A DNA stretch of 64,000 bases, from the NCBI GenBank assembly GCA_025201805.1, contig MU619248.1, forward strand, positions 153,403 to 217,402, written 5' to 3'. The translations under genes and the position numbers were made by a program. The notes under the pieces are model-generated. The model did not search any database. It was given only the letters and a program-made list of their open reading frames with translations, and had not been told where the DNA came from. Shown here one piece after another: positions 26,082-58,019 of the stretch. The DNA is from Parasitella parasitica (lineage: Eukaryota > Mucoromycota > Mucoromycetes > Mucorales > Mucoraceae). The first letter of the stretch is position 1; every line of letters starts with the position of its first letter.

Positions 26082-26763
26082 ATGCTTGCATACATACACA
26101 TATATAAGGCGCCACTTTCTTTGATATGTATCAATACACTACATTACGATAAAACGCAACATATCGATGAAAAGCAACTGTACATCGATGATGAATATCG
26201 TTTCGAGTTTGTAGCCTCGTACATGGAATTTGGTGGAAGGGACATCAAGGCTATCCAAGGCATTGCTGAAAAAGATGTGTCCTCTTGTCCCTATCCTCAT
26301 TGATTGTGTCTACAAAAAGCAATTTAAATTTGACATTACAAAGAAGCTTTTCTTAACCAAGAATGAGGGTTTCGAAGGCGAAATCGCCAAGTCTCTTGAT
26401 GAATTGACGTTAGATCATCCTCAGATCAAGTTCCGTGAGGACTTACTGGGCAAGTACCTAATTCATATACTCGAGGACCCTTACGATGATTGCTTTCTCA
26501 AGTATCTCGATTGGCTTGCCAAAACTCTCACCGATACTTCTGACAAAAAGAGTACGATTCATGTTGACTACATTTATCTTAACGCCTTGATGGGTTTTGT
26601 TGATTCTGCCATTATTAATGCTGTTCGCACTTTGCGTTTAGAACGTAATAAAGAAGGCGATGTTCTGATTGCATTCAATAATCGGATGCGGATTCAGAAT
26701 GATTACTATGCAAAGTATTACATGAACCCTTATTTCATTAATTTCATGGAAAAAGAAGTATAA
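26082..26763 (+). pseudogene. Protoglobin-family protein with a one-base frameshift
   Basis: Two overlapping plus frames together read like a protoglobin (heme globin-sensor fold), roughly 190 residues from the conserved core. Frame 1 (to 26303): HIDEKQLYIDDEYRFEFVAS, MEFGGRDIKAIQGIAE. Frame 2 (to 26763): PLVPILIDCVYKKQFKFDIT, then FLTKNEGFEG, SLDELTLDHPQIKFREDLLG, CFLKYLDWLAK, VDYIYLNALMGFVDSAIINA and RIQNDYYAKYYM. The switch falls at the AAAAAG run around 26271-26276 and needs one base skipped, so it is a real inactivating change or a sequencing error. The first in-frame ATG is 26082, but the 20-odd residues after it are not family-like, so a short 5' exon may be missed. Starts about 150 bases after the flippase stop. 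Family recalled by pattern; no structure or search available. Confidence 0.75.
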
Positions 26764-27197: not shown

Positions 27198-29452
27198 TCA
27201 ATATTCATCTGTAACAGCACCTTCACTTGCACTCTTCACAGTCATGCAGTACTTGGCTAGGACTCCCTTTGTATATTTAGGAGGCTTTGGCTGCCAGCCT
27301 TTTTTACGTTCAGCGAGCTCTTCATCAGAGATATGCAGTGTCATTTGTCTTGTATTCGCATCAATTGTTATCTTATCACCGTTCTGGACAAGAGCAATAG
27401 GACCACCTACTTGCGCCTCAGGACACACATGCCCGATGATAAAACCCTGTAATAAATCAGTTTGAATTATAGCTTGTACTTATAACCAAAGTAATGCTTA
27501 CATGCGAAGCACCAGAGAAACGACCATCAGTAACTAAAGCAACATCCTTGCCGAGACCAGCACCCATGATTGCAGCAGTTGGCTTCACTATTTTAATATT
27601 GTATTAAACCCTTCGCAAGATCATATATTTACGAAAGAAAGACTTACGCATCTAGTAAAAGTTCTATTAGCACGTAATATATGATATGTAGTAATACAAA
27701 TGCTTTACCTCTGGCATGCCAGGGCCACCCTTAGGGCCTTGATATCTAACTACAACAACAGACCCTTTAGGGATATCTTTTCTTTCCAGGGCATCAAATA
27801 TTTGATCTTCCTCATCGAATACTCTGGCGACCCCGGTGAATTTGAGGCCTTCTTTACCTGTGATTTTGGCAACTGCACCCTGAATATCCAGTATGTCATG
27901 TGCGATTTTAGTGACACAACTCCCAATATTACTTTAGATCTGTACAACTGTACCTCAGGAGCTAAATTTCCTCGTAGAATTGTCAAATGTCCGGTTGGCT
28001 TGATGGGATTCTCGATGGGATTGATAATTTGCTGACCCTCGGCAAGATCGTCAACTTCTGCCAAATTTTCTGCCTGAGTCTTTCCTGTTACAGTCAAACA
28101 ATCGCCATGTAGCATGCCCTTTCCAAGGAGGTATTTCAATACGCCTGGAACACCACCTACATTGTGAAGGTCTTCCATGACATATTTGCCACTTGGCCTT
28201 AGATTAGCTAAAAAGGGGGTCTTGTCAGAGATTGTCTGGACATCATCAATGGTGAAATCAACATCAGCAGCTTTGGCCATAGCAAGCATATGAAGCACGG
28301 CATTGGTAGACCCTCCTAAAACCATAATTGTGACAAATGCATTTTCAAATGCTTTTCGAGTTAAAATGTCTCTGGGCTTGATGTCCTTTTCTAACAGGTA
28401 GTAAATAGCTTTACCCGCACGGAGACACTCTTGAGCCTTCAATGGACTCTCGGCAGGGGTGCTGCTTGAATATGGCAACGATAAACCAAGCGCTTCAATG
28501 GCACTAGACATGGTGTTGGCAGTGAACATTCCACCGCATGCACCGCTGCCAGGACAAGCGTTCCGGATGATATCTTTTCTCTCTTCTTCCGTAATTTTGC
28601 CACTAATGAATTCGCCATTACACTCTAATGCATTACCAATGTCAATTTCACGTCCCTGACAAGATCCAACTGTGCCATATCCCTTTTTCATTGTGCCACC
28701 GTAAATAACCAATGACGGACGATTAAGACGAGCAATTGCCATGACAGCTCCAGGCATGTTTTTGTCGCATCCTGGGAGGGATATATTAGCATCGTACCAC
28801 AAAGCACTCATCACCTTGGTACACGTTATTGCAGTTTAGCGGGTAGTTTCATGCAGGCCTTTATTTTAAAAATCCGCGCTTACCGTTTCGATCGAGTCTG
28901 CAATCACATCTCTGCTGGGTAATGAGAAAGACATGCCAGCACTACCCATAGGGATTGCATCACTAACACCGATGGTATTAAATTGATAACCAACCAAACC
29001 AGCTTTCCACACGCCATCACGAACTTTGTGAGCCAAGGCATCAATATGATTGTTGCATGGATTACCATCATACCCACTATTTCAAAATGTTAAGATTCGA
29101 CGATTTTTACGCACGCCACCATTCAGTTCACGCACAATGAGGTAATACCGACTTGAGCTTTGCCCATGTCTTTATCAGTGAGTCCAGTGGCGTATACTAC
29201 ATTAATATGCATAGAAAATCAGTAAAATAAAAAGGCAATTTGTATTTAGAAATACACTACATTGAGCTTGACCCGCGCCAGCAGATGGCGTTTGAGTGAT
29301 TGCACGGCTGTACTTGTTCATGATACCTGCCTTACTTGACACTCCTCGATCTCTTGGGGCTAATTTGTGACTTGAAGGTACGTATGAATTGTTAAGATAA
29401 TCTTATAAAATGCTTAAACGAACTTGACTTACATTTGAACTTCTCCGGCCAT
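27198..29452 (-). CDS. ILV3: Dihydroxy-acid dehydratase (Ilv3)
   Basis: Nine exons: 29452-29433, 29370-29261, 29196-29136, 29076-28884, 28814-27954, 27879-27709, 27651-27648, 27587-27502, 27446-27198; 584 residues. Fourth step of valine/isoleucine synthesis, an Fe-S enzyme. Motifs: [29 protein letters not shown] and [17 protein letters not shown], whose three Cys ligate the cluster; [66 protein letters not shown]. The seventh exon is only ATGC (4 nt), flanked by TAG acceptor and perfect GTAAGT donor; it supplies the Met and first base of Leu in GMPEML, a conserved stretch that cannot be encoded otherwise. The first exon encodes just MAGEVQ plus two bases, and the N-terminus has no clear mitochondrial presequence, unusual because fungal Ilv3 is mitochondrial. 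A G-run lies in the 5' flank (29475). Confidence 0.95.
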
Positions 29453-42047: not shown

Positions 42048-42741
42048 TTTTTCAGCAAAGCCTCACCATCTCAATAAAATCATTTTTGTGAATTAAAAAA
42101 GTCGGTTTCTATATTTACTTGTGCTTTGCGGGAGTATATAGAGTATAAATTTGAAGCCGGTTCTTGGTAGATCACCTGGAGAAACACTATGACTAGCATC
42201 CTTTTGTAGTATATATAGTGAGATCAATCCCTTAAACCAACCGGAGCCTTCAGCCATAATACACCTGGGCCCAGGATGGTGGTAACTGCTCAATGTAAAA
42301 ATTTGGAATTTTATTGTTTGTAATAATTGATTAATATAGACCTTCAAAGACTCGTCGTTCCTGTCCTAAAAAGTTTAAACAAGAATTCGAACTGTCCTTT
42401 TTAGTACAATGCTAAAATATTTATTTGATAAATCGTATTTGCATCTACTTTTGCTGCTTACGATATTTCAAGTCTCTCCACTTCTGGAGCAACCAAAGCT
42501 TAGAGATAATGTGTTTTGGGCTTTGCTATTATAATCAGTATGTTTATCTTGTATTGCGGTTTGTGCCACACTGTATTTTTGCTACTATTAATACACGGAC
42601 CTCCGTTTGAAATGCAAANNNNNNNNNNAAAAAAAAAAAAAAAAACCTTATAAAAGAAGGACCCTTCAAAATGTGATCCTTTAATTCCACATTTCTTCTT
42701 TTTCTTCTTTTCCTCCTGCAAAAAAAACGCATATAGAAAAA
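42048..42741. other. Intergenic with a 10-N assembly gap
   Basis: No credible gene. Bases 42619-42628 are N, followed at once by 18 A. The true sequence across the gap is unknown. The following ATG (42742) has a pyrimidine-rich leader. Confidence 0.85.
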
Positions 42742-53371: not shown

Positions 53372-56300
53372 TTATCGCTTGGCCTTTCTAAGCAAAAAGA
53401 CAAAGAACATAAAAGCAAAGATGTTAAAGACAGAATAGGCGCAGAGAATACCGAAATCACGCCATCTGTTGTCGAAACGCCAGCCAATTCTATCTTCATA
53501 AAACTGGTTACCCATGGTGTAAGGACAATAGTTGCAGACATCAGTAGACGAGTTGTTGCTAATGTATCCATTTCCGCCAGCAGCAAAGAAGTCAGCCATG
53601 TAATCACCACAGTTTGTGCCAGGAGGAGGGATAATCTTGGTAAAGTCACTATCACCACAATGAACTTCAACGCTATCCATGACATTAACCACAAGACCTT
53701 CAATCACATAGTGGTATGGATCCAACCAGTACATCCAGGCTCTCCAGAAATAAGGCATCGAGTTAGGAGGTTGCATAATACCAGCAAAAAGAATCAAGAT
53801 GGAGGTAAAGAAGGGATTAATGACAGCAGCCATAGGTGGAGTAGCAGAGAAGGCAGCAATCATGAAGCCCAGAGATACAGAATAGAACAAAAAGACTGTA
53901 AAGTGAATGTAGAAGAAGCCAACGCGATCAGAGACGTTTTGAAGACCTGCAGTCCAATAGAAACAGAACAAGAAGATAGCAGAAAAGACAATCAAGTAAG
54001 GAATCTCAACGAGGACGCAAGAAAGTGCAAACGGGGCCCAGCCATAGTACTTGGAAGCATATTCACGACGGAACCAAGAACGCTCTTGCATGAAACGAGG
54101 CTGAGCCAAGATAATCAAAGCATTGGACATCAAAAGAGTAGTAAAGACAGAGAACATACGGTTTTGCATGTCAGCAGGAGTGTTACCCAATTTCCAGAAA
54201 CTGAAGCCAGAGATGAGACCAATGAAGCAGACATTGAAGAGCCTGCCCATATTGTAAGTAGGACAACGCCACCAAGAGACATTCATACGCTTGTATACGA
54301 GCCAAAATTGTTGGGCAAAGGTGAGAGAATAAGCACTGTTGTGGTTATGCTTGCTAGAGTCAATGCTTTGGTGAATCTGTTCAAGTTCAGCATCCAGAGC
54401 CTTTGCTTGGTCAGAGGCAGTCCATACTTCAGACCAATCCTTGGTAGCCTTACCAGCAGTACCAGCACCAACACATTCAAGAATATATTCAGCAGGATTA
54501 GCTTGAGGGGAGCATTTGGGTCCACCGTTGGATTCAAAGTAATCAATCATAGTACGAGAGTTGGGACCGATTTCACCACAATAAGCTGTCTTTCCGCCAC
54601 GGACCAAGAGGACGAGATGATCAAAATGTTCAAAAAGAGTAGCAGAAGGCTGATGAATGGTACAAAGCACCGGCCAACCAGCGTCTGCAAGCTTACGGAT
54701 AAAACGAACAATATTGAAAGATGATTGAGCATCAAGGCCGGAAGTAGGTTCATCCAAGAATAGAAGCTTGGGCTTGCCGACCAATTCAGTAGCAATAGTC
54801 AGACGCTTACGTTCTTCGACAGAGATACCAACGCCAGCTTCAAGATCGCCGACAAGCGCATCAGCGATTCTTTCCATCTCCATAAGACGAATGATTTGTT
54901 CAACATAAGAGTCCTTTTCTTCCTTGGGAACAGAGGCAGGTTGACGAAGATAAGCAGAGAATTTGAGAGCTTCGCGAACAGTAGCATTGGGATTGTGGAC
55001 ATCCATTTGTTCACAATAACCGGTAGTACGCTCAAAATCAGGACCAAGAGGCTCACCATTCAAGTAGATGCGGCCTTCAATCTTGCCAATGGTCTTGCGC
55101 TTAGCCAACACGTCCAAGAGAGTCGTCTTACCAGCACCAGAGGAGCCCATCAATGCAGTCAAATGGCCAGGACGGACAATACCGCCAATGTCGTTCAAGA
55201 GCTTTAGCTTACCACCCTTGACAGGAACAGTGTAGTCCATATGGTGCCATGAGAATGTAGTACCGTCATCAACAGCTTCCATCTTTTCGTCGTTATCAAC
55301 AACAGTTTGTTCAAGAGCTTGGCTTTCATCAATTTCTTTGGGAGCACGACCAGCTTTGTAGACCTTAGTAATGGAACCTTCCTTCTGAAGGTCAATATAT
55401 TCCATGGCAAGAGCAGTGAGAATAGTAAACAAAAAGAAGAAGAGCAAGACAGCGACAAAGTCGATCCAACGTTGCCAGGTTTCATAGCCGTACGCAGTAT
55501 GTAGATAGTCATCACCGAGAACATAGGTTTGGCCAGGCACAGCACCAGGAAGGTTACAGGTTTGATAGTCGGTGTTGTTGTAAGATGGACCATAAGGAAC
55601 AGAATTGTAGCCTTCACAAGTGAAATGCATGCCATGCAACTCGTTCGAGATCAAAGCCTTGTAGCCGTAAGCAAGAGGATTGATCCAGTATATCCACATG
55701 AGCCAAGGATGCATTTGGTTATAGGGGATTTGGTAACCACAATACACAAGACAAGCAATCAGGAGAATACTAGACAGTTGAGAGGCAGTGAAGAAATTAG
55801 GAGACACAGCACCCCAGAAACGGAAGAAGCCATTCATACATAAATTGGTAACAACAAGGATGATAAAGAATGTAAAGAACTATCAAACAATAAAGTTAGT
55901 AAGATCTATAAAACCAGGACAAGTGATTGATAAACTTTACCTTTCCAGCATCAAGTACTAGACCCATCATAAAGTAGACACAAAGTTCAAACACAATAAC
56001 TTGAATAAGAGCCAAAGGTATATCAGCAATCACAGTGGCAATATAAAAGGCAGAAGGATGGTACAGAGCAAAATGCTTGTGCTTTTCAAGCACACGACGG
56101 CCTTGCATGAAAGCAGACAATTCAGCTTGGGCAATCAAAGCATTAAACAAAAGAGAAAACAAGAATGAACCACCACGAGAGAAAGCACCACTGGCATCAG
56201 TAGGCATCATATAGAAGACGGAAGCCATGATAAGACCCTTTACAATAACACCACCATAACGAGAGATGAGAGCACCCTTGTCACCAAGAATTAGCTCAAA

Positions 56301-57827
56301 TTGACGAACAGTAAGAGATTTGACCTGGTTGAAGTAAGTAGCCACAAAAGGAGAGTGTTTAGGAGCATACTTTTGATGAGCATCGAGGAAAGCTTGACGA
56401 AACTTCTCGTCAGGACGGTCTTGGTTGATCTTTTGTTCATATTCATCGCGTTCTTTCATCATCTCAGTATACAGAGCAGATTCCTTGTAAGCCTTTTCAA
56501 ATTGGACAGAATTAACAGGCACCTTGGACTTGTAACCTTCACGGTATTCACGCTCATTCATGTTACAGAGACCAGTCAAAAAATCTGGAATAGATTTACG
56601 GTTAGGACAAAAGAAACCCATATCTTCAAAGTAGGCTTTAGCAGTGTTGGTGGGGCCAAAGTAGATACAGCGACCTTCGTCAAGAACCATAACCTTGTCA
56701 AAGAGATGGAAGATACTGTCGGAAGCCTGATAAAGAGTAGAGACGGTAGTTTTGTGCAAAATATCAGTCATGATTCGAAGCGAACGAACATAATCAAGAG
56801 CAGAAGAAGCATCCAAACCACGAGTAGCGCAATCCCAGCAATTGATAGAACTACGAGTAGTCATTTGTTCAGCAATAGAAAGACGCTTACGCTCGCCACC
56901 AGAAAGACCACGCACAAAGGCATTACCAACCATAGTGTTCATTTGTTTAGTCAGACCAAGCATATTACCAAGCATGTACAGAATCTTGTTGATAAATTCA
57001 CCCTTACTTTCACCATCTAGACGCTTACCGGGAGTCTTGTTTTTGAGAGCAAAACTCAGGGTTTGCTTACAGGTCAGAGTAGGATAATGGAGATCTTCTT
57101 CTTCGTTGTAGCAAACTTCGCCACGGAAATGTTTTGCAAATTCTTGAGCTTCAATGCCACCATAATGAACAGTGCCTTCAATGTTGGTATAAGAAGCACG
57201 CATGTTGGCAATGACACGCAAAAGCGAAGAACAACCAGCACCAGGACGACCAAGCACCAGAAGCATCTCACCGTCTTTACAGAAACCATCGTTGCCCTTG
57301 AGGATAGTAAAGTCGTGACCTTCATGCTTTCCCCATTTCCAGAATTGAAGTGAATCACGGAGCCACGTATAGTTGGTAGGAATGACTTTAGCATCGGCAC
57401 CAAGGCCTTGTACAACCAAGTTTTTCCAAACAACGCCCATATGCTTGGGGTGAAAGCCTTGAGATTCACCGGATTCGGTTTGGTCCCGCAAAAAATCAGT
57501 TAAATCGAAATCTTTGACATCGCCCTCTTCAGCTTGACCAGGAGTCATTGATTTGCGACGAGAGATACGAGATTGCTGCGTTAACTCTCTGCGAATCTCT
57601 TCATAATTGGACATGGCTGCCTCAATGTTGACAGCATTACCTTCTGATTCACCAAATGCACCGCCATTGGGATAGTTTGCTGTAGATGTTTCATTGTCGC
57701 TGTTGATTTCTTCCTTACCGTGAACCTCGTCAATAGTAGATTCATCAGAAAAGTGGTTTCTATGTTGATATTCTTCATCACGATTGTGTCGCTCTTGCGG
57801 CATACCTTGCAAGGCTGGCATATCCAT
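53372..57827 (-). CDS. PDR-type full-length ABC transporter (ABCG)
   Basis: Two exons, 57827-55941 and 55879-53372 (intron GTAAAG...GATAG, phase 0), 1464 residues. Pleiotropic drug resistance pumps export hydrophobic drugs, lipids and sterols across the plasma membrane; layout NBD-TMD-NBD-TMD. NBD1 has a degenerate Walker A GRPGAGCSS (Cys in place of Lys, normal for PDR), signature RGLSGGERKRLSIAE and Walker B CWDCATRGLDAS. TMD1 follows with RYGGVIVKGLIMASVFYM. NBD2 has canonical Walker A GSSGAGKTTLLDVLAKRK, a degenerate signature VGISVEERKRLTIATE and LLFLDEPTSGLDAQSS. TMD2 includes FMEERSWF-type loop FMQERSWFRREYASKYYGWA and the luminal Cys-rich loop near the C-terminus. These asymmetries are typical of PDR proteins. 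Substrates unknown. A TATA-like TTATATAAA lies near 57975 on the plus strand. Confidence 0.97.
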
Positions 57828-58019
57828 TTTGGATGTTTAACGTTGATTTACTGTTTGATTGATTAAAAAAAAAAGAGAGGGATATATAATGTCAAGGAAA
57901 ACAAAAGGAAAGGTTGATTAGGATTAACCAGTACGAATGAAAAATTCTATGAGAATATGTTTCTAAATGTTGCCTTTATATAAACTTTTTTTGATTTAAC
58001 AAACTAGTTCTTCGGGTAA
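57828..58019. promoter_or_regulatory. ABC transporter promoter region
   Basis: 192 bases immediately upstream of the minus-strand pump. It contains a TATA-like word (TTATATAAA near 57975) about 145 bases from the ATG and poly-A stretches. No drug-response element recognised. Confidence 0.35.

Follow-up and report, generated by a model that had tools for sequence, protein, structure and literature searches.

An ILV3-like dihydroxy-acid dehydratase (DHAD) gene is located in the window, that is, the whole stretch of 64,000 nucleotides of Parasitella parasitica DNA that was analyzed. The gene model and the features around its smallest exon are:

27198..29452, minus strand: ILV3-like dihydroxy-acid dehydratase gene model, 9 exons, 8 GT-AG introns, 584 aa
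27709..27879, minus strand: exon 6, 171 nt, ending in GMPE (...CCAGAG, last base 27709); Glu472 corresponds to Arabidopsis Glu463 in the alignment
27652..27708, minus strand: intron 6, 57 nt, GTAAAG...CTAAT...TACTAG, with an in-frame stop if retained
27648..27651, minus strand: candidate 4-nt microexon ATGC, exon 7 of 9, encoding Met473 and contributing the first base of codon Leu474
27588..27647, minus strand: intron 7, 60 nt, GTAAGT...TTAAT...AAATAG, with an in-frame stop if retained
27502..27587, minus strand: exon 8, 86 nt, phase 1, starting with TGAAGCC, where TG is the rest of the Leu474 codon
27583..27587, minus strand: alternative acceptor (...GTGAAG/CCA), which with the donor at 27708 gives an in-frame skip of the microexon that deletes Met-Leu-Lys

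The nine joined exons encode 584 aa with zero internal stops, and all eight introns are of the GT-AG type and 55 to 74 nt long. The exons match the Pfam families ILVD_EDD_N (PF00920) and ILV_EDD_C (PF24877) over five exon stretches. Among the matches listed, the nearest protein is from Parasitella parasitica, with 96% identity, followed by Mucor species with 92–93%. Since both Pfam domains are present and the closest listed homologues are DHADs, the minus-strand gene at 29452–27198 is identified from its sequence as a dihydroxy-acid dehydratase, as the first-pass annotation had proposed. The N-terminus of the 584-aa model matches that of the Parasitella protein P0001. An earlier gene model with the start MNKYS was dropped in favor of the nine-exon model, since the relatives have a longer N-terminus. 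The protein begins with MAGEVQIHKL and has no obvious presequence by eye.

After the first 29 or so matches, which are fungal and the closest, the DHAD matches listed are mostly bacterial or unnamed, at about 65–68% identity. A second type of DHAD, reading GMREMLKPS, is found in some Mucorales (P0064, P0083, P0103 and P0105). Translated in all six frames and searched with PF00920 and with P0105, a paralogue from Mucor mucedo, the 30.7-Mb assembly showed this DHAD locus and no second one, but these searches score the best candidates only, so a diverged second copy could be missed. The ORF adjoining ILV3 (26215–26763, plus strand) matches the Pfam family Protoglobin (7.4e-17), which is better known from prokaryotes. 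At 53372–57836 on the minus strand, two long ORFs in different frames match a PDR-type ABC transporter (ABC_trans_N, PDR_CDR, ABC2_membrane).

The first-pass annotation had also placed an exon of only four bases, ATGC, at 27648–27651, preceded by TACTAG, followed by a consensus GTAAGT donor and flanked by introns of 57 and 60 nt. The sequence agrees with this on the minus strand, with the introns at 27708–27652 and 27647–27588. At 4 nt and with GT-AG introns on both sides, ATGC falls within the ultra-short class of microexons (≤15 nt, proper introns on both sides). Joining across it gives GAG-ATG-CTG-AAG, which translates to E-M-L-K and completes the block GMPE-M-L-KP. Both the frame and the conserved residues are thereby restored, although the frame alone has other solutions. 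Exact skipping of ATGC leads to an immediate stop (GAG-TGA), and retention of either intron leads to a stop as well. Branch-like motifs are found 15 bases from the end of intron 6 (CTAAT) and 16 bases from the end of intron 7 (TTAAT); a simple scan for branch motifs gave a match in 6 of the 8 DHAD introns, with none in introns 4 and 5.

The position of these four bases in the enzyme was examined by alignment to the Arabidopsis chain 8hs0_A, in which the Glu of GMPE corresponds to residue 463 and is followed by Met464 and Leu465. Residues C139-D140-K141 and E463 of this chain, used here to assign membership of the DHAD family, all have identical counterparts in the query. According to the available text of PMC11528067, E463 of the Arabidopsis enzyme is a Mg2+ ligand and helix 465–474 is part of the substrate channel. 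The numbering of that paper is taken as that of 8hs0_A, because its C139 and D140 coincide with the CDK motif there. The Mg2+ ligands are described as conserved across the family (PMC5770437, available in part), and a role in cluster and Mg2+ binding is given for the CDK motif (PMC11528067, PMC5770437). The Met of the putative microexon is thus placed directly after the Glu aligned with the Mg2+ ligand. Since M-L-K is next to this Glu and at the substrate-channel helix, its loss should be harmful to the enzyme.

The possible splice products from exon 6 to exon 8 were enumerated, allowing one or two introns of 30 nt or more, with GT or GC as donor and AG as acceptor. This gave 314 in-frame products free of stops, with the ATGC product ranked first. 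Since the yardstick of the ranking is the window's own product, the ranking leans towards the ATGC product, and independent support rests on the conservation count among homologues. PEMLKP is present in exactly one of the 314 products, the one using ATGC; one further product contains EML and also uses ATGC, but lacks 18 residues downstream. Single-intron products account for 22 of the 314, including one in which M-L-K is lost through a 126-nt GT-AG intron. The initial statement that the conserved block can be assembled only with ATGC is therefore correct, whereas the reading frame is kept in all 314 products. Similarly, each neighboring exon had been described as one residue short, whereas the bases lost without ATGC are the entire Met codon plus the opening base of the Leu codon; the downstream exon holds the remaining two.

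How often such an exon could arise by chance was estimated with 20,000 dinucleotide shuffles. A frame-restoring, stop-free microexon of 1–30 nt was obtained in 6,501 of them, and frame rescue was discarded as evidence for being too cheap. Any 4-nt microexon of the form AG-N4-GT appeared in 1,463 of the 20,000; ATGC or ATGT in place, with both introns of at least 40 nt, turned up in 19, and never together with a consensus donor. A control with random pieces of the window (24 of 20,000 with ATGC or ATGT in place, 10 of 20,000 if a consensus donor is required) was discarded as a chance estimate, because the real site itself can be drawn. The pattern AGATGCGTAAGT has a single match in the window, where 0.01 would be expected (a match in 1 of 100 shuffles). 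The looser AGNNNNGTAAGT (AG-N4-GTAAGT) occurs 4 times against 1.13 expected, so the splice pattern by itself is weak evidence. Pattern scans of a viral and of a bacterial/archaeal collection, made in search of genomic DNA of relatives, gave 1 and 31 loci, which were all dropped since none was DHAD-like around the match in the frame of the pattern.

For the homologue search, 8000 candidates were scored and the best 120 were examined. E-M-L is present ungapped in 110 of these 120. The ten exceptions (P0001, P0004, P0005, P0007, P0008, P0009, P0010, P0020, P0025 and P0027) are all Mucoromycota gene models, from Parasitella, Mucor, Pilobolus, Absidia and Endogone, that are broken at this point. 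A close comparison was made with 30 sequences (P0001–P0029 and P0060), that is, 29 Mucoromycota models and the transcript-like record P0023. The microexon site carries an indel in nine of them and a substitution in P0004, while internal indels elsewhere, with end gaps uncounted, are found in six of the 30 (P0017, P0021, P0023, P0024, P0027 and P0028). Errors at or near the places of other introns were observed in P0021 (near intron 3), P0023 (at intron 8) and P0028 (around intron 3), so the microexon site stands out as the most affected place without being the sole one. EMLK is read by 20 of the 30, P0023 included, which fits the presence of the microexon or the absence of the introns alike.

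Pairs of close relatives differ at precisely this place. The Mucor lusitanicus models P0002 and P0004 agree over their 561 aligned residues except for 2, which both fall at the microexon site, and the intact P0003 and the broken P0008 differ in 1 of 556 residues, at the site, plus a gap there. The broken models take several forms: GMPE/PT in P0001 (Parasitella) and P0020 (Pilobolus), and GGP/VKPT in the four Mucor models P0005, P0008, P0009 and P0010; the window permits the same escape product in each case. The VMK of P0004 might derive from the GT four bases into the GTAAGT donor, which is only a guess, and a simple splice shift fails to explain either P0007 (VSIK) or P0025 (MK). These broken models suggest that the genomes of the relatives share the intron-microexon-intron layout, and that gene finders took a path around it. 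The damaged active-site motif in ten public Mucoromycota DHAD models is probably an annotation error.

P0023 is an ENA ORF from a contig of 1878 nt. It shows no indel across the places of introns 2–7, reads EMLK, and was taken as a transcript because these six introns are missing from it. Its end, GASH-VNIELLKKIM, looks as though it reads into the last intron. Compared with the Mucor plumbeus model P0005, it is identical up to residue 479 except at the microexon site, where P0005 is broken; the overall identity is 98.1%, with 9 differing columns, 8 of which are within the odd tail of P0023. On the simplest reading, it would be a partly spliced transcript from Mucor plumbeus or a very close species.

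From these data, ATGC is very probably a real coding microexon of 4 nt that is used constitutively in the dihydroxy-acid dehydratase gene. A slightly shorter enzyme could be obtained if the microexon were skipped and the donor at 27708 joined to GTGAAG/CCA. This junction is in frame, uses a GT-AG intron of 126 nt and gives the form that databases carry for P0001 of Parasitella and P0020 of Pilobolus, without Met-Leu-Lys. Nevertheless, it would remove the residues just after the Mg2+ ligand, at the start of the substrate-channel helix; it contradicts the intact EML of 110 of the 120 homologues (the best of 8000), it needs an intron well outside the 55–74 nt of the model's eight, and P0023 has EMLK. 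It was therefore considered very improbable. Even less credit is given to the use of a 132-nt GC-AG intron whose donor lies within GGP/GMPE. Its product, GGP-VKPT, can be obtained from the window and is the form seen in P0005, P0008, P0009 and P0010, but it lacks GMPE, including the Glu aligned with the Mg2+ ligand, and a working enzyme is unlikely with that Glu deleted. In addition, among the models with this form, P0008 differs from the intact P0003 at this site only. A pseudogene or an assembly error in the stretch is likewise highly unlikely, since the nine exons give 584 aa with no internal stop, the same spot also troubles the gene models of other species, and the only Ns of the window (42619–42628) are 15 kb from the microexon.

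It was also considered that the microexon is real but that its inclusion is regulated: skipping, or retention of either intron, would end translation early, and the enzyme level would thus be set by splicing. This reading overlaps with that of a constitutive exon. Exact skipping and retention of either intron all give stops, and the assembly searches match a single DHAD locus. However, mis-splicing is expected to yield stops around every exon that does not hold a whole number of codons, and regulation of this type is regarded as unlikely.

Returning to a constitutive ATGC exon, each flanking intron would be recognized across itself (intron definition), which the shortness of all eight introns makes likely here. 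The U1 footprint on a donor covers about −3 to +6. Introns 6 and 7 would probably be removed one after the other, since the four bases belong both to the acceptor side of intron 6 and to the U1 footprint on the intron 7 donor, which could hardly be occupied together. The full GTAAGT donor may offset the poor exonic context TGC, and selection against products without ML, which would be rejected because the block is so conserved, may retain the microexon. An exon of this size had been flagged at the outset as a problem both for annotation and for exon definition. The former is evident in the 10 of 30 related models damaged at the site, while the latter is probably not at issue here, since the introns are all 55–74 nt.

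Exons of this kind have precedents. Exon 2 of human MPC1 is a constitutive 4-bp microexon (PMC9929638, available in part); like ATGC, it is 4 nt long and not a multiple of 3, and its constitutive inclusion is reported. MPC1 is a different gene, in which the exon was proven by experiment, whereas the ILV3 ATGC is known from sequence; moreover, exon 2 of MPC1 has long introns and is reportedly spliced by exon definition that depends on flanking intron sequence, unlike ILV3 with both introns of about 60 nt (PMC9929638). In Fusarium, a 1-nt exon is described in CYP621A P450 genes, with RNA reads from two Fusarium species (PMC12940212, available in part). It resembles the ILV3 case in being fungal and ultra-short, in rebuilding a conserved motif and in the database models being wrong there, but it has 1 nt with RNA support instead of 4 nt from sequence (PMC12940212). 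The 1-nt microexons of plant APC11 and VPS55, verified by RNA-seq and RT-PCR according to the available part of PMC8831610, are likewise tiny coding exons missed by annotation, and the VPS55 donor is a conserved GTRAGT; unlike ILV3, they are from plants and RNA-verified (PMC8831610). Xlr2 of Trichoderma contains, in the available text of PMC11121469, a glucose-regulated microexon of 20 nt; both this and the 4-nt ILV3 exon are from filamentous fungi (PMC11121469). Neither a microexon report for Mucorales nor the ILV3 ATGC exon was found among the open-licence PMC papers that the searches listed. Thus, 4-nt exons are already known as a kind, and the ILV3 case comes from a lineage for which a described example was not found.

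The finding would add a likely 4-nt constitutive coding exon for Mucorales. Gene-finding software is often wrong on coding pieces this small, and the site gives a concrete, repeated annotation failure, with the active-site motif damaged in 10 of 30 related models in public databases. The ILV3 microexon would also be a compact natural test of how the spliceosome handles two introns with four shared bases. More tentatively, and with rather low confidence, the 4-nt microexon may have been kept across Mucor, Parasitella, Pilobolus and perhaps Endogone in what is possibly the sole DHAD gene of this genome; with exact skipping or retention of either intron leading to a stop, the making of branched-chain amino acids would rely on the correct splicing of these four bases, which may also serve to tune it.
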